From an uncultured Flavobacteriales bacterium (GTDB lineage: Bacteria; Bacteroidota; Bacteroidia; Flavobacteriales_G; Salibacteraceae), in NCBI GenBank assembly GCA_905479105.1, contig CAJQLE010000004.1, positions 496,001 through 560,000 on the forward strand: 64,000 nt of DNA, read 5' to 3'. Positions 19,211-31,551 of this stretch are shown here, piece by piece. The notes beneath the pieces were generated by a model that had not been told where the DNA came from, did no database searches, and saw only the letters and a list, made by a program, of their open reading frames with translations. Both the position numbers and the translations under genes were made by a program. Positions within the stretch are counted from its first letter, which is position 1. Each line of letters opens with the position of its first letter.

Positions 19211-20590
19211 TTGAAATTTGCCATTGTCGATATTGAAACCACAGGAGGAAGCGCTAAAACAAATGCGATTACTGAAATTGCTATTATCAGAATGGAGGAT
19301 GGCAAAGAAATCGATCGATATGAAACCCTAATCAATCCTAATCGATTGATTCCTCCTAAGATTTCTTCTTTGACTGGAATTACGAATGAAATGGTAGCGG
19401 ATGCTCCAGAGTTTCATGAAGTTGCACAAGTCATTTGGGAAAAGACACACGATCATGTATTCGTAGCTCACAATGTAAATTTTGATTACAGTTTTATTCG
19501 AGAACAATTTGCACTTCTCGGATCTCAATGGAGGCCGAAACGCTTGTGTACGGTTCGTCTTTCTAGAAAATTAATTCCGAATCTGTATTCCTATAGTCTT
19601 GGGAAAATAGCGGATCAACTTGGGTATAAGATTTTGGCTAGGCACAGAGCAATGGGCGATTGTGAATTTACTGCCGTATTGTTCCAACTGCTTTTAGAAA
19701 AGGATAATGAAGAACATATATTGTTTTCATTAAATGCTCGGTCCAGAGAAGCCACAATGCCGCCACACTTAAAGCGAGATAGATTCGATAAAATGCCTAC
19801 GACCCAGGGTGTTTACATATTTAAGGGACCAGGAGGGAAGGTAATTTATGTTGGGAAAGCAAATAATTTAAAAGACCGTGTAGCAGATCATTTCCGTGGA
19901 AATACCCACACAGGATTAAAGAGCCGCTTTAGCGAGAAAATTGAAGATCTTGAGTGGATCGAATGCCCCAATGAAATGATTGCTTTGCTAACAGAGGCAA
20001 ATCAAATTAAGAAGCATTGGCCTCCATATAACAGACTGATGAAAAGGGTTACACTGAATTGGGGGATTTATTCCTACACGGATCAGAAAGGATATAAGCG
20101 CTTTAACATTGGTAGAGTAGGGAAGTGGGACAAGCCAGTGTTTTCATTTAAAAATAAGTTTGAGGCTAGAACTCGTCTAGAATTTTTATGCGCCAAGCAT
20201 GATTTATGCGCAAGATTCTGCGGTCTTCAAGATCAAGGAGTAGAGTGCTTAGATGGGTTTTATGGCGAATGCCGAAAAGCGTGTCTTGGTAAGGAAGAAT
20301 CAAGCGATTATAATGAACGATTTAATAATGCTCTTGAAGAATTATCTCAATTGGGGAAAACGATGATAATCAAGGGGAAAGGATTTAAGGAGGATGAAAG
20401 TAGCATTGTTCTTTTAGAGGATGGCAGATATAAAGGACACGGCTTAGCCCCTAATTCGATTGATTTTGAAAGTTTGATCGAAATCAAGAATTGGATTGAT
20501 ACTGGTTATGATGATCAAGATATTCAGTCTGTAATTATGAGCCAATTATCCAAGAAATCATCTGAATTAGAATTACTTATTCTTCAGTAG
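19211..20590 (+). CDS. DEDD exonuclease fused to a UvrC-like GIY-YIG nuclease
   Basis: 459 residues, cytoplasmic. The N-terminal part is a DnaQ/epsilon-like 3'-5' exonuclease: DIETTG (D7, E9), HNVNFDYSF and the closing HRAMGDCEF. From about residue 198 a GIY-YIG domain follows (GVYIF at 201-205, VIYVGKA near 211-217), as in the N-terminus of UvrC and Cho. A cysteine cluster follows (CARFCGL, ECLDGFYGECRKAC). The fusion suggests DNA repair, incising and trimming in one polypeptide; known in Bacteroidota as a domain pairing. Start is TTG at 19211, directly at the first strand. It overlaps the convergent patatin gene by 14 bp. Confidence 0.88.
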   Translation: MKFAIVDIETTGGSAKTNAITEIAIIRMEDGKEIDRYETLINPNRLIPPKISSLTGITNEMVADAPEFHEVAQVIWEKTHDHVFVAHNVNFDYSFIREQFALLGSQWRPKRLCTVRLSRKLIPNLYSYSLGKIADQLGYKILARHRAMGDCEFTAVLFQLLLEKDNEEHILFSLNARSREATMPPHLKRDRFDKMPTTQGVYIFKGPGGKVIYVGKANNLKDRVADHFRGNTHTGLKSRFSEKIEDLEWIECPNEMIALLTEANQIKKHWPPYNRLMKRVTLNWGIYSYTDQKGYKRFNIGRVGKWDKPVFSFKNKFEARTRLEFLCAKHDLCARFCGLQDQGVECLDGFYGECRKACLGKEESSDYNERFNNALEELSQLGKTMIIKGKGFKEDESSIVLLEDGRYKGHGLAPNSIDFESLIEIKNWIDTGYDDQDIQSVIMSQLSKKSSELELLILQ

Positions 20591-22829
20591 ATTTAAGAAG
20601 TTCGTTTAATCGCACAAATGCCTTGGTATTTTGTGGACTATCTAATGATGATTGAATCCTGTCTTTTTCCTTTCGGGTCAAATGCCAACTCAGGCTTATT
20701 GGATTCAAATCAGACCTCTCGAGAATAAAATCTACCACTTCAATATCGCCTTCATACCATTCGTACGCTTGCCGAATTTGGTCTTCCATGGCATAGTCTT
20801 GAACGTCCAAGAATGTGCTGTAAAAAGTGCCGAATGGCTGCGTTAGTGATTCCCATAAGCTCCTCTTAGAACTTGGTTTTAGATCAATAAACTTCTCTCG
20901 ATCTCTTATTTGAATGATCACAACTTTCTCCGTATTGTCTTCCAACCAATTCCTAAATGAATACATATATTTCAATGTATTGCTGAAGCCGTAGTTATCT
21001 CGAATACCAGCATCTAGAATTTCTATTGACGGATTACTCGGCAGTTTAGTAGCTGGAAAGACATATGGAAATGTGGCACTCATCCTTAGAGCTGAAAGAA
21101 AGCTCAAGTCTTTGGCTCCTTGCTCCTGAAAAAACCTTGAAAATTCTATGTTTTCATTAATTTGATTGAGTGCCGTATTGTGTGCTAAATATGAAACACC
21201 TTGGGAAGAAATAATCAATTTACGGCCATCATTGCTTATGGTTGGAGCCATTAACATTAAGGGCATCTTCGCTTCAAACTCCAGTTGCGTGTAGTCGCTA
21301 ATTGACCTATCCATCCAACCTCTGGTATCTTTATTGAGTTGAACTTCAAAGGCCCGTGATCTATCTTTTCGATAGTTAAAACTGCCAAATTCGAATGTTT
21401 TGAATCGCAAGAAAATATCATTCAAAACAGCAGTTACTGCCACGGGGTTCAGTTTGTCTCTAGAGATGTCATCCATGATGTAGCTGAACGAAGGGACAGA
21501 ATCTTGGTGATTTTTTCTATACAGATATTCTCTTAAATAGGCTGCTCCTACAACGCCACCTGATGATCCAGAAATAAGAATGGTGTTTTTCCAAAGCTTG
21601 TTCCTGCTTATGTCGTTTGCTTCATTTAAAGAAAGCATAGTCCAAAGCGCAGATCTCAACCCTCCTCCTGGTACGTTTATAAAAACTGCGATTGGTCTTT
21701 CATCATGGGTTGAGTCTTTCCAATTTTCAAGAAGTTTTAATCCTCGTGTAATATCAATCTTATATGCTTCATCGTCTTCTTGGACCGAGCGAATGTGCGA
21801 CTGGGAATACTCTACTTTTACGGTGTCATAGTTTAAACCATAAGCTTGACTTCCATATTGAAATGTCTCTTGTTTAGAGACTAAATTGAGTAAAATAATG
21901 ATTGACACGATGATCACCGTGGTCCAACCTTTGAACCAAGAATAAAAAGCTGAGGTGAGCATTATGAGTATCGTGAAGAAGAGAAGAATGCTCGCAGCGG
22001 CAGGAATCATGAGCCATTTCGAGTCACTGAACCAACCAACAATGAAAAGCGTGATGATAATCCCTGCTTGAAATAACGAGGCATTGATGCGGTTTTGCGT
22101 AAAGACTTTTTCTAAAGTTTCTGGCTTGTAATGACTGCATTCTCTTGCTAAAGCTATTTTACCCCGATTGCTAATATAGGTTGAAACTGTCCATTGTTTA
22201 CCTGACTTTTTGGGTAAACTCGACCATTTCTTCCTATTACTGAATAGGTCGTTTACTGGATTGAAGATTCCGTCTTCTTGCTGCGACTTATAAGAGACAC
22301 CCCCTTTATTAGTGATTAAGAAGTAACCTAAAGTGAAAAAGATAAATAGAAGGTTGCCAGCTAAAAAACCGCATGCGTTTAGGATGGTCTGTAAATATTC
22401 AATTTGTTCGTACTCGATCTGAAACGTGATCATCGAATACAAGTAAACGATAGAGAAGGTGAGTGGGATTAAAATATTGTTTTGACAATATTTGATGAAA
22501 GGCCTGCTGAGCGTGGCTAAAAAAGGAAAGCGAAAACCATTTACAACATAGCTCGAAAGGTTGAAAGCCATAATGAAACCACCCAATGAAACGCCCAATA
22601 TAAGGTGGGAAAGAAAATTGATTTTTCCGAGATATTCAGGTTGAAGAAAAAGATAAGGCACACCATATTTGAGTGTGACTATTTTGAGGACAATTCCAAA
22701 CAGAATCAACCAAAATATAAGAAGGATTAGATTTTTCTTAAGATGAACGAAAAGCAATTGAACGGGAAAGAAATACACGATTCTTTCCCATGTTTTAATC
22801 TGCGACTTTCGATCAATAGATACTGCCAT
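20577..22829 (-). CDS. Membrane-bound patatin-like phospholipase
   Basis: About 750 residues. The N-terminal 330 residues carry several membrane helices; the C-terminal half is a patatin domain with the oxyanion stretch VPGGGLRSALW, nucleophile S423 in GSSGG, and the dyad Asp D606 in LDAGIRDNYGF. Predicted lipid acyl hydrolase with its catalytic domain attached to the inner membrane. Start taken as ATG 22829; GTG 22835 is an alternative two codons upstream. Larger than most bacterial patatins because of the membrane half. Function in lipid turnover is inferred from the fold. Confidence 0.87.
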   Translation of the reverse strand: MAVSIDRKSQIKTWERIVYFFPVQLLFVHLKKNLILLIFWLILFGIVLKIVTLKYGVPYLFLQPEYLGKINFLSHLILGVSLGGFIMAFNLSSYVVNGFRFPFLATLSRPFIKYCQNNILIPLTFSIVYLYSMITFQIEYEQIEYLQTILNACGFLAGNLLFIFFTLGYFLITNKGGVSYKSQQEDGIFNPVNDLFSNRKKWSSLPKKSGKQWTVSTYISNRGKIALARECSHYKPETLEKVFTQNRINASLFQAGIIITLFIVGWFSDSKWLMIPAAASILLFFTILIMLTSAFYSWFKGWTTVIIVSIIILLNLVSKQETFQYGSQAYGLNYDTVKVEYSQSHIRSVQEDDEAYKIDITRGLKLLENWKDSTHDERPIAVFINVPGGGLRSALWTMLSLNEANDISRNKLWKNTILISGSSGGVVGAAYLREYLYRKNHQDSVPSFSYIMDDISRDKLNPVAVTAVLNDIFLRFKTFEFGSFNYRKDRSRAFEVQLNKDTRGWMDRSISDYTQLEFEAKMPLMLMAPTISNDGRKLIISSQGVSYLAHNTALNQINENIEFSRFFQEQGAKDLSFLSALRMSATFPYVFPATKLPSNPSIEILDAGIRDNYGFSNTLKYMYSFRNWLEDNTEKVVIIQIRDREKFIDLKPSSKRSLWESLTQPFGTFYSTFLDVQDYAMEDQIRQAYEWYEGDIEVVDFILERSDLNPISLSWHLTRKEKDRIQSSLDSPQNTKAFVRLNELLKSTEE

Positions 22830-22871
22830 TAGCACAAGATAGTGCGCTTATTTGAAATACAGTTCAGAGAA

Positions 22872-24569
22872 TTAGATCTTGGACATAACCAATTCGAGAA
22901 TTTCATTTTCAAGTTCTTCTGCCTTTGCTAAAATCATGTCTGATTCTTTATATAAATCATTGACATAACTCTTTTCATTTAAGCCTGCAGCGTTTATTTT
23001 CACATTTAAATGGGCACCTCTAATTGCAGTTCTCGCGCAAAGAGCGCCAACACCAGCATCACTAATAGAGGCAGGAAGACCCGTTTTAGCCATTTCAAGC
23101 ATTACCTCCATACTGTCTAAGGTGGTTTTCATCACAGACAACGGAACTTGAATTGCCCCTTTGGTAGCAGCTGTAATTGCTTGCTTGCGTGCAGTTTTTT
23201 CTGATTCATTTCCCTTTGGCAATCCGAATGCGTCCATGATTTTCGTAAAAGCGTTTGTATCCTCATCAACAAGATACATGAGGTGGTCTTTATAGGATTG
23301 TCCTTTGGCCGCCCATTCAGAATAGTATTCCCATTTGTCGTCCCAGCCTCTTTTGTGAGAAGACAGGTTCGCTACCATTGTCCCAAGCGAAACACCCAGT
23401 GCACCGACATACGCAGATATTGATCCACCGCCAGGAGCGGGCGATTCAGAAGCAGTTTCGTTTGCAAATTCTGTTAAAGTCATTCCCATTAGTTTCTTAG
23501 AAGAGTTCATTCTGTCTTCAAGAACATATTCAATGACTCTTTCACGGAGATTGAATGGAGCCAGCTCATCAAGGCCCAGTGACTTAATGGCAATTTTCAT
23601 AATCTCCTCTTCATGAACACCAGTTGATCGCTCTTGCTTAAGTAGGAAATATTTCCCAGCGTCTAATAATGCTTTTTTGGGAACGAGGCCTATCAATTCA
23701 GATCCAGTAACACGAATTCCTCTAAGTTCTGCTCTTTCGCACGTTTTATCGAAAGCAACATGGATAGGAGTGATAGAAATATTCGTCAAATTGTAACTAA
23801 TTTGAGCGACTCCATACTCTTCAATGAACCAACCAATTCCTTTGACGCACTTTAAAAGACCAGGCTCGTTTACTGGGTTTCCTTTTTCATCTTTAATGAT
23901 CTTGCCAGTCAAAGAGTCTCCTTCGCGTTTTGCTCTTCCTCTTTCTCGGATATCAAATGCAATAGAGTTAGCTCTTCTTGTACTTGTGGTATTCAAGTTG
24001 ATATTATACGCAACTAAAAAGTCTCTTGCACTAACGGCAATTGCTCCAGTTTTTTTAACCAGTGCAGAATAGGTAGAGCTTCCAAAGTCAGGTTTCCAAT
24101 TACTATCTGAAAGTTTATCCTTTAATCCTTCATACTCTCCAGAGCGCACTGTAGCTAAGTTTCTTCGATTCTCAGAGGTAGCGGCATTTTCATAAAAGTA
24201 GGTTGGGATTTCAAGTTCCTCACCAATTCGTTTTCCTAATTTACGAGCACATTCAATGGCTTCTTCCATTGAAATATTAGCAATAGGAACGAGCGGGCAA
24301 ACATCTGTAGCTCCAAAACGAGGGTGCTCTCCTTTGTGCGAGCTCATGTCTATGACCTCACTTGCTTTTTTTACCAATCTGAATGCAGCCTCAATAACTG
24401 CGTTTGGCTCGCCAGCAATAGTAATTACTGTTCTATTCGTTGCTTTACCGGGGTCGACATTAAGAAGCATGGCTCCTTCAACAGTTTCCACCACATCGGT
24501 TATTGCCTTGATTTTTATGGGATCGCGTCCTTCACTTATATTAGGAACACATTCTATGATCTTGTTCAT
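22872..24569 (-). CDS. ftcD: Glutamate formimidoyltransferase / formimidoyltetrahydrofolate cyclodeaminase
   Basis: 565 residues, the two-domain form. Residues 1 to about 310 are the formiminotransferase (starting IIECVPNISEGRD, with SSHKGEHPRFGATDVCPL); residues about 355-560 are the cyclodeaminase (SESPAPGGGSISAYVGAL). It moves the formimino group from histidine breakdown to tetrahydrofolate and releases ammonia. hutI lies on the same strand 4.5 kb upstream with two unrelated T9SS genes between. hutH and hutU are not in the window. A TAnnTTTG match precedes the start. Confidence 0.96.
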   Translation of the reverse strand: MNKIIECVPNISEGRDPIKIKAITDVVETVEGAMLLNVDPGKATNRTVITIAGEPNAVIEAAFRLVKKASEVIDMSSHKGEHPRFGATDVCPLVPIANISMEEAIECARKLGKRIGEELEIPTYFYENAATSENRRNLATVRSGEYEGLKDKLSDSNWKPDFGSSTYSALVKKTGAIAVSARDFLVAYNINLNTTSTRRANSIAFDIRERGRAKREGDSLTGKIIKDEKGNPVNEPGLLKCVKGIGWFIEEYGVAQISYNLTNISITPIHVAFDKTCERAELRGIRVTGSELIGLVPKKALLDAGKYFLLKQERSTGVHEEEIMKIAIKSLGLDELAPFNLRERVIEYVLEDRMNSSKKLMGMTLTEFANETASESPAPGGGSISAYVGALGVSLGTMVANLSSHKRGWDDKWEYYSEWAAKGQSYKDHLMYLVDEDTNAFTKIMDAFGLPKGNESEKTARKQAITAATKGAIQVPLSVMKTTLDSMEVMLEMAKTGLPASISDAGVGALCARTAIRGAHLNVKINAAGLNEKSYVNDLYKESDMILAKAEELENEILELVMSKI

Positions 24570-24595: not shown

Positions 24596-24713
24596 TATGT
24601 TGGTGAAATAAGAAGTTATAATATTAATCAACCAATTAGGATTGCAATCTAGTCGCACACTGATTTAAGTGTTTTATAAATTATTGTCATTTTTAAAGTA
24701 TATCTTCAGCATT

Positions 24714-26735
24714 ATGAAAAAAATTTTACTCGCGACTATTAGTCTTGCATATATAGGACTTGGACACGCACAGACATATATGTCTGAAGATTTCTCAAGT
24801 GGTATTCCTGCTACATGGACTCAATCTACCCTTGCAAATGACGGTGGTTGGATTGCCGGAACAGCTGCTTCTCTATCGTCCGGTTCATTCCCGTATTCTG
24901 ATCATGGTGATTTTATCGGATCAAATGATGACGGTTGTAACTGTGATAAGTCTGCGGATTCGCTAATGACAGATTATATTGATTTAACTTCAACTGGTGC
25001 AACTGTTGTTTCATTAAATATTGACATGTATTATGTTGAAGGAACGTATCAAGGAGTGACCGAGTCTTTCGATGTATATGCTCAAAGTCAATCCACAGGA
25101 GCTTGGACATTGATTTATGATGCTCCACTTGCTCTTATTTTAGAATGGCAAGATGGTTTAACATTTGACCTTTCAAGCTATATTGGGGATCAAGTAAGGT
25201 TATTGTTTCTCTATGGTGATGGAGGTGGATGGTTATTTGGTGTTGGTGTGGATAACGTAAGAGTATTTACTCCTGCTGCTGATGATGCATTCAATCAGGC
25301 CATCACAAACAGTCCTTTCCATGAAGTAAATACTGCGAATTCAATTGCTGGCACTATTAAGAACGTTGGTTCTGAAGCTATTACAAGCTTTGATGTGTCT
25401 TATACCACTGATGGTGGTGCTGCAGTTTCTGGATCAATTACTGGTTTGAACGTTGCTCCAGGTGCATCTTATGCTTTCACACATCCAACCCCTTGGACTC
25501 CAACTACGGTTCAAACGTTTGAGGTTCAAACAGAAGTTACAATGGTAAATGGTAATGTTGATGGTGATCCATCAAATAACATTACTTCTATGGATATCAT
25601 AGTTCATCCTCCAGCGGTTGCTAGAACTCCGGTACTTGAAGCCTTCACAAGTTCAACATGCGGACCTTGTACACCTGGAAATATTAATGTTGGTAATGTA
25701 TTGTCGGCTTTTCCTGATGAATACTCTAAGGTAAATTACCAAATGAGCTGGCCAGGAGCTGGTGATCCTTACTTCACTAATGAAGGAGGTGATCGAAGAA
25801 CATATTATGATGTGAATTCAGTTCCTAACATCTTCACTGATGGAGCAAATGGAATTAACAGTAACTCATATACAGCAAATGATTTCACATCAGCTAAAGC
25901 AGTTCCTGCTTTTATCTCAATGGAAGCGGAAGCAACAGTGAATAAGGATGTTGTTTATGCAGTGGTGAATGGTCAATTGGAGATGGAATCATCAAAGTGG
26001 GTATTGAATTCATCTTCTTGGTATACACCTATCATCGATCTTCCTGGAAACCTAGTTGCTCATCATGCTATCAATGAGAAGCAAACATTTCTTAATGTGG
26101 AAAGTAATGGCGAAACTGAATTCGAGCATGTGATGAAGAAAATGATGCCAGATGCATCAGGTGAGTTCTTGAATGCAGTTACAGCAAACGATACTGTGAT
26201 GTTAACAAACTCTCACGATTTTGTAGGAGAATACAGACTGTCTAATGACGCTGGTGATCCAATCATCCATTCTTCAGAGCACTCAGTAGAGGAGTTTTCT
26301 GATTTAGAGATTGTGTTTTGGATTCAGAACCCAACAACAGGTGAAGTATGGCAATCATATCATCAAGATGTAGAGTTAACAGAAGAGACTTCTAACTTGA
26401 CAGTAGTTGTAGAGGATGGCGATTCAATTTATGTAATCGGAACTGACTCATTTGAAATGACGGGAACTGATGGAAGTTTAGTGCCTCTTTCTGTGGAGGG
26501 AACTTCTAAAGCTTCTTTCCGTGTTTACCCAAATCCAGCAAAGGATATGGTTTACATCAGCGGAGTAGAAGGTTTTGCTAATGTTACTGTTTTTGACGTT
26601 CAAGGAAGAACAGTTAAGCAAGTGTCTACAGATGCTAATACACTTCGAGTTTCAGATCTTAATGCAGGAATGTATATGATCAGAATTGAAAATAATGGTG
26701 TTGCATCAAACACTCGTATTTCGGTGACGAAATAA
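24714..26735 (+). CDS. T9SS-exported Omp28-like surface protein, copy 1
   Basis: Start set at ATG 24714 (MKKILLATISLAYIGLGHAQ, a signal peptide), not 24669. 673 residues. Residues about 22-185 look like a cleaved-adhesin/MAM-like beta sandwich (YMSEDFSSGIPATW to GVGVDNVRVF). Then a CARDB/FN3-like sandwich, then an Omp28-like thioredoxin-fold domain with a CGPC motif in EAFTSSTCGPCTPGN, and finally a type A sorting domain (VYPNPAKDMVYIS to the terminal TRISVTK). Probably anchored to the cell surface. The CxxC may be redox-active; that is inference. It is a duplicate of the next gene apart from the N-terminal domain. Confidence 0.9.
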   Translation: MKKILLATISLAYIGLGHAQTYMSEDFSSGIPATWTQSTLANDGGWIAGTAASLSSGSFPYSDHGDFIGSNDDGCNCDKSADSLMTDYIDLTSTGATVVSLNIDMYYVEGTYQGVTESFDVYAQSQSTGAWTLIYDAPLALILEWQDGLTFDLSSYIGDQVRLLFLYGDGGGWLFGVGVDNVRVFTPAADDAFNQAITNSPFHEVNTANSIAGTIKNVGSEAITSFDVSYTTDGGAAVSGSITGLNVAPGASYAFTHPTPWTPTTVQTFEVQTEVTMVNGNVDGDPSNNITSMDIIVHPPAVARTPVLEAFTSSTCGPCTPGNINVGNVLSAFPDEYSKVNYQMSWPGAGDPYFTNEGGDRRTYYDVNSVPNIFTDGANGINSNSYTANDFTSAKAVPAFISMEAEATVNKDVVYAVVNGQLEMESSKWVLNSSSWYTPIIDLPGNLVAHHAINEKQTFLNVESNGETEFEHVMKKMMPDASGEFLNAVTANDTVMLTNSHDFVGEYRLSNDAGDPIIHSSEHSVEEFSDLEIVFWIQNPTTGEVWQSYHQDVELTEETSNLTVVVEDGDSIYVIGTDSFEMTGTDGSLVPLSVEGTSKASFRVYPNPAKDMVYISGVEGFANVTVFDVQGRTVKQVSTDANTLRVSDLNAGMYMIRIENNGVASNTRISVTK

Positions 26736-26790
26736 GAATTGAAACATTAAATATGGAAGCCCGGATGCGAAAAGCATCCGGGCTTTTTTT
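25317..26790 (+). repeat. Tandem duplication, copy 1 (C-terminal domains plus terminator)
   Basis: From the common sequence TTCCATGAAGTAAATACTGC onward this stretch matches 27651-29120 at high nucleotide identity, through the stop codon, the short 3' tail and the terminator hairpin. Identity is strongest at the sorting-domain end: about 95 bases from 26598 differ from 28929 onward at about one position. Confidence 0.85.
26757..26790 (+). terminator. Rho-independent terminator after T9SS gene copy 1
   Basis: A perfect 12-bp stem (AAGCCCGGATGC with GCATCCGGGCTT) around a GAAAA loop, then seven T. The same hairpin follows copy 2. Confidence 0.95.
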
Positions 26791-26900
26791 ATTGCGAAAA
26801 TCGTTTGGATTACAAGAGTGGAGGGTAAATAAAATCCGCGTTCAAGTATTATTATTCCTAATTTTAACCTTTACTTCGTTCATTAACAATAAAACTAATT

Positions 26901-29066
26901 ATGAAAAAACTTTTATTTACTGCCTCATTGGCATTGTCCGTTTTTTTCACACAGGCTCAGTACTATTCGCTGTCGTTTATTTCAGCTGGTCAGAATCCTG
27001 GAGGGATCAATACGGAAGATGAGCAGCCTTATGGCTCATTATCAACAACGTATACAGGGTATACGGAAGTATTCACTCCAGGTTCAACGGCCTGGTCTCC
27101 TGTTCAAACACTACCTTTCAGTTTTGAGTTTGATGGAGGTGTTGTGACAGACTATTATATCGCTCCTTCCGGGGTGCTGACTTTTTCATCTAATCTAGGC
27201 ACAGTTCCTTCTTCGTCAAATGCTGCTTTGCCAACTGCAATGATTCCAGACAGCTCGATTTGTGCTTGGGGAATGAATTTATCTGGGGGTAATGACGGTG
27301 TGGTTACTAAGACTTTTGGTACGGCTCCGAATCGTCAGCAATGGATTATTTGGGCATCTGCTTCTGCCGCAGGGATATCTGGTGGATGGACATACTGGGG
27401 TATTGTTTTAGAAGAAACTACAAACAATATTCATGTAGTGGACATGCGTACTTACAATGGAACTACAGCATTGACAGTAGGAGTTCAAATTGATCAGTCA
27501 ACTGCTTTCTCTATTGGTTCATCTGTTAACTCAACAAACAGTGCAACTGGTGGTGGCGTATTTGATGCTTCAGATAACACTTACTATACATTCATTAATG
27601 GGGTGCAACCTCAATTTGATGTGCAAAATGCTTCTATCGATAATAACGTGTTCCATGAAGTAAATACTGCGAATTCAATTGAAGGTACAGTAAGTAACTT
27701 AGGTTCTGCAACTATAACTAGCCTCACTGTAGAGTATACAATTGATGGCGGTTCAGCTGTTTCCGCAAACATTACTGGATTAAACATTGCTTCAGGTACT
27801 AGCGCTTCTTATACTCATCCTACGCCATGGACTCCTTCGGTAACTGCGACTTACGATGTTCAAACTCTTGTAACGGCTGTAAATGGAAATGTAGATGCTA
27901 ACCCATCTGATAATTCAGCTTCTATGGATGTGATTGTTCATCCTACACCGGTTGCAAGAACACCATTGTTAGAAGCGTTCACAAGTTCAACGTGTGCTCC
28001 ATGTACTCCTGGAAATATTAATGTTGGTAATGTATTAGCAGCTTTTCCTGGTGAATACTCTAAGGTAAATTACCAAATGAGCTGGCCAGGTTCAGGAGAT
28101 CCATACTTCACCAATGAGGGAGGTGATCGAAGAACATATTACGGAGTGAATTCAGTTCCAAACATCTTTACTGATGGACTTGACGGAATAAATAGTAATA
28201 GTTATGCTGCAAATATTTTCACTTCAGCACAAAATGTTCCTGCCTTTATCTCAATGGAAGCAGAAGCTACAGTGAATAAGGATGTAGTTTATGAAATTAC
28301 AAATGGTCAATTAGAAGTGGTATCATCCAAGTGGGTTTTGAATTCATCTTCTTGGTTTACTCCAGTTATTGATCTTCCAGGAAACCTTGTCGCACATCAT
28401 GCAATAAATGAGAAACTGACTTTCCTAAATGTTGAAACAAATGGAGAGACTGAATTTGAGCATGTCATGAAGAAAATGATGCCAGATGCATCAGGTGAGA
28501 GCTTAAATGCTGTAACAGCAAACGATACTGTGATGCTTTCTAATTCTCACGATTTTGTTGGAGAGTACAGATTGTCTAATGATGCTGGAGATCCAATCAT
28601 CCATTCTTCAGAGCACTCAATTGAAGAGTTTTCTGATCTAGAGATTGTATTCTGGATTCAGAGTCCTGCAACAGGAGATATTTGGCAATCATATCGTGAA
28701 GATGTAGAGTTAACAGAAGAGACTTCTAACTTGACTGTTCTTGTCGAAAATGGTGATTCAGTATATGTTATTGGAACTGACTCATTTGAAATGACAACTA
28801 CAGGAACTCTAGTGCCTTTATCTGTTGATGAAAGATTTAATAAGTCTTTCAAAGTGTATCCAAATCCAGCGAAGGATGTAGTTTACATCAGTGGAGTAGA
28901 AGGTGTTGCTAACGTGACTGTTTATGATGTTCAAGGAAGAACAGTTAAGCAAGTTTCTACAGATGCTAATACACTTCGAGTTTCAGATCTTAATGCAGGA
29001 ATGTATATGATCAGAATTGAAAACAATGGAGTTGTATCAAGCACTCGTATTTCGGTTACGAAATAA
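26901..29066 (+). CDS. T9SS-exported Omp28-like surface protein, copy 2 with different N-terminal domain
   Basis: 721 residues with signal peptide MKKLLFTASLALSVFFTQAQ. The first 230 residues are unlike copy 1: a distinct beta-rich domain (PFSFEFDGGVVTDYYIAPSGVLTFSS) resembling those found in other T9SS cargo. From NVFHEVNTANSI onward it matches copy 1 closely: sandwich, Omp28-like domain with CAPC in place of CGPC, and the type A sorting domain. So a shared C-terminal part carries two different front domains. ATG at 26901 is clear. Role unknown; probably surface adhesion or binding. Confidence 0.9.
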   Translation: MKKLLFTASLALSVFFTQAQYYSLSFISAGQNPGGINTEDEQPYGSLSTTYTGYTEVFTPGSTAWSPVQTLPFSFEFDGGVVTDYYIAPSGVLTFSSNLGTVPSSSNAALPTAMIPDSSICAWGMNLSGGNDGVVTKTFGTAPNRQQWIIWASASAAGISGGWTYWGIVLEETTNNIHVVDMRTYNGTTALTVGVQIDQSTAFSIGSSVNSTNSATGGGVFDASDNTYYTFINGVQPQFDVQNASIDNNVFHEVNTANSIEGTVSNLGSATITSLTVEYTIDGGSAVSANITGLNIASGTSASYTHPTPWTPSVTATYDVQTLVTAVNGNVDANPSDNSASMDVIVHPTPVARTPLLEAFTSSTCAPCTPGNINVGNVLAAFPGEYSKVNYQMSWPGSGDPYFTNEGGDRRTYYGVNSVPNIFTDGLDGINSNSYAANIFTSAQNVPAFISMEAEATVNKDVVYEITNGQLEVVSSKWVLNSSSWFTPVIDLPGNLVAHHAINEKLTFLNVETNGETEFEHVMKKMMPDASGESLNAVTANDTVMLSNSHDFVGEYRLSNDAGDPIIHSSEHSIEEFSDLEIVFWIQSPATGDIWQSYREDVELTEETSNLTVLVENGDSVYVIGTDSFEMTTTGTLVPLSVDERFNKSFKVYPNPAKDVVYISGVEGVANVTVYDVQGRTVKQVSTDANTLRVSDLNAGMYMIRIENNGVVSSTRISVTK

Positions 29067-29120
29067 GAATTGAAACACTAATCATTGAAGCCCGGATGCG
29101 AAAAGCATTCGGGCTTTTTT
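27651..29120 (+). repeat. Tandem duplication, copy 2
   Basis: Second copy of the unit at 25317-26790, about 2.3 kb downstream, same strand, including the terminator. The upstream parts of the two genes are not similar, so the duplication boundary falls inside the coding sequence at the domain junction. Confidence 0.85.
29088..29120 (+). terminator. Terminator after T9SS gene copy 2, shared with hutI end
   Basis: The same hairpin as at 26757 with one G-U pair (GCATTCGGGCTT). The convergent hutI stop codon (29119-29121, minus strand) falls at the end of its T tract, so the hairpin may slow polymerases from both sides. Confidence 0.9.
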
Positions 29121-30363
29121 ATGCGCTAAACTTTTCTCCGTTGATATATACGGAATCAATATGGTTGTTGCCGAAAGCGTACGGAAGGAAAGATAGAGAC
29201 TTGATCTTGTCTGTGAGAATGAAGTTAGCAAGCTTGCCTTTTGTAATCGAACCACATTCATGCGCAAGTTCAATGGCTGCGGCACCGTTAATGGTCATCG
29301 CATTTAAAGCTTGTTCTGGCGTCATCTTCATTTTAATGCAAGCCAAAGAGAAAACAAAGTTCATATTGCCACTTGGAGTAGACCCCGGATTGAAATCGGT
29401 AGCGAGGGCTACAGGAATGTCATTATCCATAAGGTCCTTAGCTGGGGTGTATGGAATCTCCAAGAAGAAAGAACAGCTTGGTAAAGCCACAGCAATCGTT
29501 GAAGAAGACTTTAAACAAGTGATATCTGCTTCATTGATTAACTCAAGGTGATCTACACTGATCGCATTGTTCTTTACGCTGGTCTCAATCCCACCAATGA
29601 TATTAAACTGGTTTACATGAACCTTAGGCTTTAAACCATAATTCGCTCCAGCCTTTAAAATGCGGTCGGTTTGCTCAACATTAAAATAGCCTTCTTCGCA
29701 AAACACATCAATGTATTCGGCAAGATTATCCTCTGCCATTTTCGGGATCATCTTTTCGATGATCTCATTGACATAATCGTCCTTCCGATGCGCATAACCT
29801 TCAGGAAAAGCATGTGCGCCAAGAAATGTGGATTTGATTGGAATGGGAGAAACTTCTTTAAGTCGCTTGATGACACGAAGCATTTTTAACTCAGCCTTTA
29901 GGTTTAATCCATAACCAGATTTTATTTCAATCGCGCCAGTTCCTTGATAGATCACGTCATTTAATCTCAGTAATGCAGCATCATACAAATCATCTTCAGA
30001 TAACTCATTGAGTTTTTTAGCAGAATTGAGAATACCTCCACCTCGATTGGCTATCTCTTGATAAGTCATGCCATTGATTCTATCCTCAAATTCTTGATTT
30101 CTCCAATCAGCAAAAACCAAGTGAGTGTGACTATCGACCCAAGTAGGTAATATGTATTTACCAGACACGTCCGAAACTTCATAGTCATTGAAATGATCTT
30201 TATTAAAATCACTCATTGGTCCCATGTCTTCAATCCTGCCATTTCTAACGCTCATCCATGCGTTTTCTATGCTCGGAAGGTTCTTCATATCTTTTCCTTT
30301 AACCACTAGGCATTCTTCGCTTCGGGTTTGCAACAAGGATTTAATATTGATGAATACTTTCAT
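29119..30363 (-). CDS. hutI: Imidazolonepropionase
   Basis: 414 residues, amidohydrolase superfamily. It opens the imidazolone ring in histidine degradation to give formimino-glutamate, the substrate of the ftcD product. Metal ligands H79 and H81 are visible in WVDSHTHLVF, then LGAHAFPEGYAH, and a later ATDFNPGS segment. ATG 30363 gives the family N-terminus. It ends inside the terminator of the convergent T9SS gene. It is on the same strand as ftcD, so the two may once have been adjacent. Confidence 0.95.
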   Translation of the reverse strand: MKVFINIKSLLQTRSEECLVVKGKDMKNLPSIENAWMSVRNGRIEDMGPMSDFNKDHFNDYEVSDVSGKYILPTWVDSHTHLVFADWRNQEFEDRINGMTYQEIANRGGGILNSAKKLNELSEDDLYDAALLRLNDVIYQGTGAIEIKSGYGLNLKAELKMLRVIKRLKEVSPIPIKSTFLGAHAFPEGYAHRKDDYVNEIIEKMIPKMAEDNLAEYIDVFCEEGYFNVEQTDRILKAGANYGLKPKVHVNQFNIIGGIETSVKNNAISVDHLELINEADITCLKSSSTIAVALPSCSFFLEIPYTPAKDLMDNDIPVALATDFNPGSTPSGNMNFVFSLACIKMKMTPEQALNAMTINGAAAIELAHECGSITKGKLANFILTDKIKSLSFLPYAFGNNHIDSVYINGEKFSA

Positions 30364-30483: not shown

Positions 30484-31551
30484 ATGGCTGGCAATAGTAT
30501 AGGACAATTATTCAGATTAACCACATTTGGTGAGAGTCATGGACCTGCTATAGGCGGAATAATTGATGGATGCCCTCCTGGATTGGAAATTGACATCCAA
30601 AGGATTCAATCCGAATTGGACAGAAGAAAACCAGGGCAGTCTCACATTACTACTCAAAGAAAAGAATCTGATACCGTAAGAATCCTCTCTGGAATTTTTG
30701 AAGGAAAAACACTCGGGAGCCCAATTGGGTTTACGATCGATAATAGTGATGCTAAATCCAAAGATTACGATCATTTAAAGGATGTGTACCGTCCTTCTCA
30801 TGCTGACTTTACATACGATGCCAAATATGGTATCCGCGATCATCGTGGTGGTGGAAGGTCTTCTGCTAGAGAAACTGCTTGCCGAGTAGTTGCAGGAGCT
30901 ATTGCTCGTCAGTTTTTGGAGAAGACAGGTGTTGATGTTTGGGCCTACGTATCTTCAGTAGGTGAGATAGAATTAGAAAATCAATATCAAAACGTAGATC
31001 GATCGATGATTGAGAAGTCGATCGTTCGCTGTCCTGATCAAGATACATCTGCAAGAATGATCACTTTCATAGAAGACATTCGCAAACTCGGAGATACTGT
31101 CGGTGGCACTGTCTTTTGTGTCATTCAAGGTCTGCCGGCAGGCATTGGCGAACCTGTATTTGATAAACTCAATGCCGATTTGGCAAAAGCATTGGTAAGC
31201 ATCAATGCAGTAAAAGCATTTGAGCTTGGAAGTGGAGTTTCTGCATCGAAGATGCTGGGTTCAGAACATAACGACCAAATAACTTCATTAGGTAAAACCC
31301 TCACCAATAACTCAGGAGGAATTCAGGGAGGTATATCCAATGGAGAGGATATTACGATGCGTGTAACGTTTAAGCCTGTTGCAACAATAATGAGAGATCA
31401 AGATTCTGTAAACGCTAAAGGTGAGACTGCAATCGCCTCAGGAAAGGGCAGACACGACCCTTGTGTGGTTCCTAGAGCAGTTCCTATTGTTGAAGCAATG
31501 TGTTTATTAACAATTGCCGATCATTATTTACGTCAGAAGGCCATTGGTTGA
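30484..31551 (+). CDS. aroC: Chorismate synthase
   Basis: 355 residues. It makes chorismate from EPSP using reduced FMN, the last step of the shikimate pathway (aroE is also in this window at 53756). Family signatures are intact: [12 protein letters not shown] near the N-terminus, RIGHT-length [24 protein letters not shown] and the C-terminal [18 protein letters not shown]. The start is ATG 30484. Confidence 0.97.

Follow-up and report, generated by a model that had tools for sequence, protein, structure and literature searches.

How do two neighbouring genes with quite different beginnings come to have nearly the same end? The question is raised by a tandem pair on the forward strand of the 64,000-nt stretch of DNA analysed here (the whole stretch is called the window, and its genome is labelled G000), for which the initial annotation had offered two explanations, domain shuffling by partial duplication or gene conversion keeping the tails alike. 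Both open reading frames on the + strand are present, and their common C-terminal domains and hairpin were confirmed. In gene A (24714..26735, +, 673 aa) a signal peptide, recognised by eye, is followed by a head related to choice-of-anchor J domains (24771..25301), a CARDB-like domain (25305..25613), a putative Omp28/HBP35-like thioredoxin-fold module (25614..26507) and a T9SS type A sorting domain, or CTD (26523..26720). The start first given for this gene, 24669, is a GTG lying 45 bases upstream of the likelier ATG at 24714, which opens the signal peptide seen by eye; the gene itself stands. Gene B (26901..29066, +, 721 aa) likewise shows a signal peptide by eye, then an unnamed beta-rich head (26961..27614), a CARDB domain (27618..27947), the Omp28/HBP35-like thioredoxin-fold module (27945..28838) and a T9SS type A sorting domain (28854..29054). 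The CGPC and CAPC motifs that had been noted for the two modules are found as TSSTCGPC in A and TSSTCAPC in B.

The pair is flanked by ftcD (glutamate formimidoyltransferase, 22872..24569, −), an array neighbour in the genus, and by hutI (imidazolonepropionase, 29119..30363, −), an array neighbour in most congeners read; aroC (chorismate synthase, 30484..31551, +) forms the flank beyond hutI. By array we mean the A/B-type genes in the ftcD-hutI region. Beside ftcD, 20577-22835 encodes a 752 aa protein for which no NCBIfam match was obtained at E 1e-5; its GSSGG stretch presumably hints at a patatin-like lipase. An open reading frame of 151 aa on the + strand (29096-29551), antisense to the 3' end of hutI and overlapping the B terminator, is probably spurious. 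Promoter-like sites numbered 12, against an average of 14.1 in shuffles.

The first domains of the two proteins had been described as unrelated, and this was borne out by the profile comparison, in which the heads showed no similarity (hhalign probability 0.1%) and are not homologous. The A head of the window scored 23.3 bits against the choice-of-anchor J family (NF038128), below the curated cut-off of 30, which is exceeded by its homologues in three relatives (G013A 49.6, G025A 37.8, G039A 31.6), and its sequence places it near this family. For the window copy of the B head no family match was found in Pfam or NCBIfam. The AlphaFold model of B reached a mean pLDDT of 89 with a 49-row alignment; in a Foldseek search with the whole model many rows were long alignments of high rmsd, and the VIA rows lay mainly over residues 237-350. 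The model of gene A was poor in the head, with large parts below pLDDT 50.

Behind the heads the proteins are of one kind. The CARDB family (PF07705, cut-off 22.7 bits) is passed by B with 27.2 bits and failed by A with 17.4, yet the A domain is 64% identical to that of B; residues 234-349 of the B model match a CARDB domain (3idu_B, Z 13.4). Residues 349-720 match HBP35 (5y1a) with Z 23.3 over 281 of 314 residues at 16% identity, the overall rmsd of 15.7 indicating that the domains are probably oriented differently in the two structures. A sequence profile also connects the B tail with HBP35 (E 8.9e-4). Judged by the model, the B tail is HBP35-like across the whole module, a predicted thioredoxin fold with CxxC followed by the CTD, and the same fold is assigned to A by homology with B. 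The Omp28 family (PF11551, gathering cut-off 34.9) was missed by both proteins (A 17.7, B 12.7 bits). The sorting domains were detected with E 2e-14 in A and 3.2e-14 in B (Por_Secre_tail) and lie above the cut-offs of PF18962 (54.1 and 53.4 bits vs 27) and TIGR04183 (48.8 and 53.9 vs 23). A and B are thus predicted T9SS type A cargo, for which secretion and surface anchoring may be expected from the sequence.

Divergence along the pair, followed by dS, is not uniform. In the shared part the amino acid identity rises from 64% in the 100 residues that precede the tail to 87% in the tail itself (364 residues). In the heads synonymous sites are saturated or nearly so; dS is 1.15 in CARDB and 0.61 for the whole tail, and in windows of 40 codons it ranges from 0.15 (A residues 632-671) to 2.5 (431-470). 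The initial annotation had put the difference near the 3' ends at about one base in 95; this is exact for 26598-26692, with a single difference at 26624, but does not hold for the 3' ends at large, since 26465-26764 is 86% identical to its counterpart. Third-position differences number 4 in the last 43 codons and 103 in the other 321 tail codons (Fisher p 0.0012, with the boundary chosen post hoc), while a permutation test on the longest run of identical third positions between A and B was marginal (p 0.038).

That the pair is old can be seen in its relatives. B was used as query on 60 genomes, the window's own included, of which 31 gave a match at E 1e-30 or better; the relatives are mostly draft MAGs. 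The array lies between both flanks, ftcD and hutI, in G011, G001, G006, G004, G005, G009 and G007; in G003 it stands beside ftcD, with no hutI in the 7 kb that were read past B, and in G010 and G012 one flank each is present, where the contig ends. The order A-B is kept in G011, G003, G001 and G006, with A-C-B in G004 and A-B-C in G010 (whose contig starts inside A), C being headless. G012 holds A and the start of B, which runs off the contig; at the site in G005 and G009, B is present but the A head is missing; the G007 array consists of B, another gene of B type and a headless tail. In G006, G010 and G004 the B heads belong to a distant subtype, at the same site as an A head. In another genus, G013 carries the A-B tandem with the ftcD/hutI flanks absent in the 10 kb read, and in G016 another anchor-J-type head (Pfam Cleaved_Adhesin) precedes B. 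In a search of 35 family genomes with an A-head profile made from G000, G011, G003 and G013, 10 had a strong A head (E 1e-50 or better). Within the trio formed by the window genome and its closest relatives here, G011 and G003, the A heads are 65-83% identical, that of the window being 74% identical to the G011 head and 64% to the G003 head.

Several irregular genes were met in the course of this survey. In G004 (L087 4816-6879 and 8677 onward) the frames of A and B are interrupted, A into pieces of 472 and 213 aa and B at the cysteine motif, and the headless gene between them is open; this is either decay or an assembly error. Outside the array, seven congeners (G001:C15, G005:C40, G006:C87, G007:C12, G008:C84, G009:C3, G010:C18) have HBP35-like genes that lack a head and whose open frames measure about 370-406 aa, and the one in the G007 array is 397 aa long (L042 2537-3730). 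In the window genome, G011 and G003 none was found at E 1e-30, with 18 candidates scored per genome. Three genes stand in tandem in another relative (L100 6998-12597): B, a headless tail gene with 62% identity to the B tail, and one more gene of B type.

Comparison of the tails among these genomes gave a picture opposite to that of the heads. Within a genome the A and B tails are 87% identical in the window, 87% in G011, 78% in G003 and 97% in G013, while corresponding tails of different trio genomes are 71-76% identical and crossed A-B pairs 69-78%; the trio tails are 37-42% identical to those of G013. In a tail tree of 23 rows, six of the nine genomes with at least two array tails paired them by genome (window 100/100, G011 95/93, G013 100/98, G016 98/96, G025 100/100, G001 99/100), G003 was unresolved (67/63), and in two, G006 and G010, the tails grouped by gene and not by genome, so that homogenisation of the tails is not universal. 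A 16-row tree had the window, G013 and G025 pairs starred, with 93/93 for G011 and 93/92 for G016; there the G003 A and B tails were not paired (AU p 0.123). The AU test rejected the grouping of window A with G011 A tails (p 1.1e-12), of window B with G011 B tails (p 3.9e-41), of all three A tails (p 1.9e-25) and of all three B tails (p 7.8e-47). Where they pair in this way, the tails thus resemble each other more than their counterparts in other genomes, even though the duplication predates the split, which is concerted evolution.

The homogenised stretch begins at a sharp border. Nucleotide sites that back grouping by genome or by gene were counted before and after the tail motif. Given as genome:gene, they were 7:17 before and 104:11 after it for G000/G011 (Fisher p 1.4e-9), 17:19 and 116:12 for G000/G003 (p 8.3e-8), and 7:29 and 92:21 for G011/G003 (p 2.3e-11). 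The best cut fell 7-20 residues upstream of the tail motif in all seven genome pairs for which it was computed, those with G013, G016 and G025 included; in the latter pairs CARDB also leans to the by-genome pattern (30:14 for G013/G016), less so than the tail. In G001/G006, where no cut was computed, the site patterns had no clear change at the CARDB border. For the window the G000/G011 comparison would put the 5' border of the tract at 25584..25610 (+), codons 291-299 of A, and in the trio the CARDB-like domain in front of it follows gene orthology. The A-head and B-head genes of G025 lie about 178 kb apart (G025:C138, near 45 kb and 224 kb) and their tails still pair by genome with 100/100; thus the tandem position is either not required or was lost later, and homogenisation may not depend on adjacency. 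The events themselves are not datable, since synonymous sites between the relatives are near saturation.

At the other end the tract includes the terminator. A hairpin with a T run follows both A (26755..26790, +) and B (29087..29121, +), the two almost identical and the latter overlapping the stop codon of the convergent hutI. The duplicated terminator hairpin of the initial annotation was confirmed by folding, at -26.6 kcal/mol for A and -22.7 kcal/mol for B, with 0 of 200 shuffles as good. A consensus scan listed the A hairpin and missed that of B, which has the shorter T run; terminator-like sites numbered 6 against 2.6 in shuffles, the B hairpin not being among them. With up to three mismatches allowed, the stem sequence occurs at exactly two places in the whole genome of 2.79 Mb, which rules out a common genomic terminator sequence. 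An earlier spacer comparison by global alignment without a control separated the spacers poorly, while its repetition with shuffles did so, using local scores and the number of 1000 shuffles that reach them. From the stop codon to the T run, window A scored 44 against window B (0/1000), 31 against G011 B, 20 against G003 A and 14 against G011 A (1/1000), and window B scored 34 against G011 B. In the 100 nt past the T run, window A scored 21 against G003 A (0/1000), 20 against G011 A (1/1000) and 11 against window B (132/1000); window B scored 42 against G011 B (0/1000), this stretch being hutI. Since the A terminator resembles that of window B and the spacer beyond it resembles the A orthologues, the tract takes in the terminator and leaves out the spacer. 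The borders are thus sharp on both sides: a 5' cut before the tail motif, with CARDB by gene in the trio, and a 3' end after the T run, with the spacers by gene.

The terminator sequence also suggests that B was the donor, with exchange from B to A, in the window's last event at the 3' end. This reading is weakened by the G003 A terminator, which also resembles the B type. Coding tail sites common to window A and B match G011 A at 50 and G011 B at 59 sites, and G003 A at 77 and G003 B at 58; compared with these two genomes, coding-tail sites gave no signal of direction.

Some of the arrays carry a second type of tail. The A and B genes of G001 have ordinary heads (51% and 54% identity), although both end in another Omp28-like tail, marked by CGWCPRG (type II); the two tails are 67% alike, and their identity to their window counterparts is 31-32%. 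Type II proteins of G001 and G006 pass the Omp28 cut-off with 48.1-55 bits. The same tail is present on the arrays of G006, G010, G004 and G012, and since the B heads of the first three are of the distant subtype, G001 is the cleanest case. The A and B tail types agree in all nine readable genomes (five I/I, four II/II) out of the ten with a strong A head, the B gene of G012 running off its contig and the interrupted genes of G004 and G010 being typed from pieces. Two genomes go against a strict rule. In Salibacter halophilus (L141) an anchor-J head with a type II tail lies near a B gene with a type I tail; in G039 an A head has a type II tail, and no B match was found in that genome at E 1e-30.

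In our reading, to which we give a probability of roughly 85%, the tails of an old tandem pair undergo recurrent ectopic gene conversion, or some equivalent form of non-reciprocal exchange, and this keeps the 3' module alike in each genome. A and B would be T9SS-type surface proteins, long paired, whose heads differ while the kind of tail is the same, and the window's tract would run from the end of CARDB through the HBP35-like module, the sorting domain and the stop codon to the terminator. The tails are homologous and could recombine, while the unrelated heads could not and would stay distinct; ectopic conversion or repeated non-reciprocal 3' exchange is preferred because it therefore needs the least machinery. 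The recombination mechanism itself is one that we infer, and swaps of tail type would require at least one larger replacement event. The gene conversion alternative of the initial annotation is thus supported, as the tandem predates the split from several relatives, the heads and the trio CARDB follow orthology, and the tails follow the genome. Some ancient event must have placed the two heads on one kind of tail. The other alternative, a recent partial duplication in which B was copied and the copy received another head, would make the tails young, and their 87% identity together with the duplicated terminator agrees with it. As the cause of the present similarity it fails: the A and B heads stand in tandem beside ftcD in G011, G003 and G001 and elsewhere in the genome in G013, and the window A head is 74% and 64% identical to its G011 and G003 counterparts, yet the tails of these proteins group within the window genome. 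A single recent duplication is contradicted by the tandem in relatives, which leaves just an ancient version possible, and we regard the recent event as very improbable. Slightly less credible still is that no recombination took place and that shared constraint or convergent composition makes the tails alike within a genome. The tail is indeed a conserved domain with near-invariant residues, but the by-genome signal is seen at the nucleotide level, spans the non-coding terminator and ends at borders on both sides; the CARDB domains of the same trio genes show the opposite pattern, and the further matches to B in the genome, 14 in number (13 around the sorting domain, one in CARDB), are no more than 23-45% identical. 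Composition or constraint alone is ruled out by the terminator being included and by the CARDB domains and spacers of the trio, which lack the by-genome pattern.

A more substantial competitor, although we think it probably does not describe the process as a whole, is repeated replacement of whole tails by crossing-over or module capture instead of short-patch conversion, with some tails coming from another gene. The type II tail on both genes of G001 and on the arrays of G006, G010 and G004 cannot arise by point-wise conversion of type I, its CARDB-like region has diverged too (32% and 29% identical to those of the window), and genes with a tail and without a head are found in the arrays of G007, G004 and G010. 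The type I tails of the window, however, are a mosaic of near-identical and diverged stretches that suggests several overlapping tracts, with the permutation test marginal. Conversion could also be the route and compatibility the reason: the array would then consist of exchangeable surface heads on one matched tail, the type being common to A and B because the two cooperate, for instance in an assembly that, by analogy, may handle redox or hemin, and conversion would spread a new type to the partner. If true, this would explain the agreement of tail types in nine of nine genomes, including type II on the ordinary heads of G001. We consider such selection for matching tails unlikely, as the independent type changes are few (two on each head tree), three of the four II/II genomes have the distant B-head subtype, S. 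halophilus combines both types, and the site lacks an A head in G005 and G009 although B is there.

Conversion confined to one domain is already known between paralogues in bacteria, and the A/B pair is a new, well-delimited example of it. In the release factors RF1 and RF2, domain 3 is described as converted in opposite directions across lineages, one of them in Bacteroidia (PMC4530459); the kind of process is the same, the present case differing in that tandem predicted surface proteins are affected in several lineages and the terminator is inside the tract. The P. gingivalis gingipains and HagA, which are T9SS surface proteins, share identical repeated domains between genes whose N-terminal parts differ; domain rearrangement is reported for these adhesin modules, and gene conversion is discussed (PMC5266723). 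The repeated adhesin domains there belong to large polyproteins, whereas in A and B one HBP35-like module with its terminator is shared by a tandem pair. In the meningococcal tpsA/tpsC system the 3' end of a secreted protein gene recombines with nearby related cassettes; this exchange was reported to be rare and tied to growth inhibition, while that between A and B homogenises two full genes (PMC3848433). Among the matches listed by a literature search of partial open-access coverage, which is no proof of absence, no paper dealt with this pair or with tail conversion in T9SS cargo.

With regard to function, HBP35 of P. gingivalis (PDB 5y1a) is a hemin-binding protein of 35 kDa; it binds hemin and reduces insulin, its thioredoxin activity requiring both cysteines (PMC2907840). 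HBP35 stands alone, whereas the module of A and B follows a head and a CARDB domain, and thioredoxin activity and hemin binding could be ascribed to it only by analogy. From what is known of the families, A and B are likely both anchored at the surface, each joining a binding head of its own to the thioredoxin-fold module that they have in common; the tail would supply a thioredoxin-like or hemin-binding function and the heads would bind different targets.

The relatives thus provide a natural series of one gene pair in which head, linker and tail have different histories, and in which the start and the stop of recombination can be followed down to the terminator. The pair is also a warning that, when trees or annotation of T9SS cargo rely on the tail, paralogues may be grouped by genome and orthology misjudged. 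If the matching of the tails is functional, it would show gene conversion keeping partner proteins compatible.
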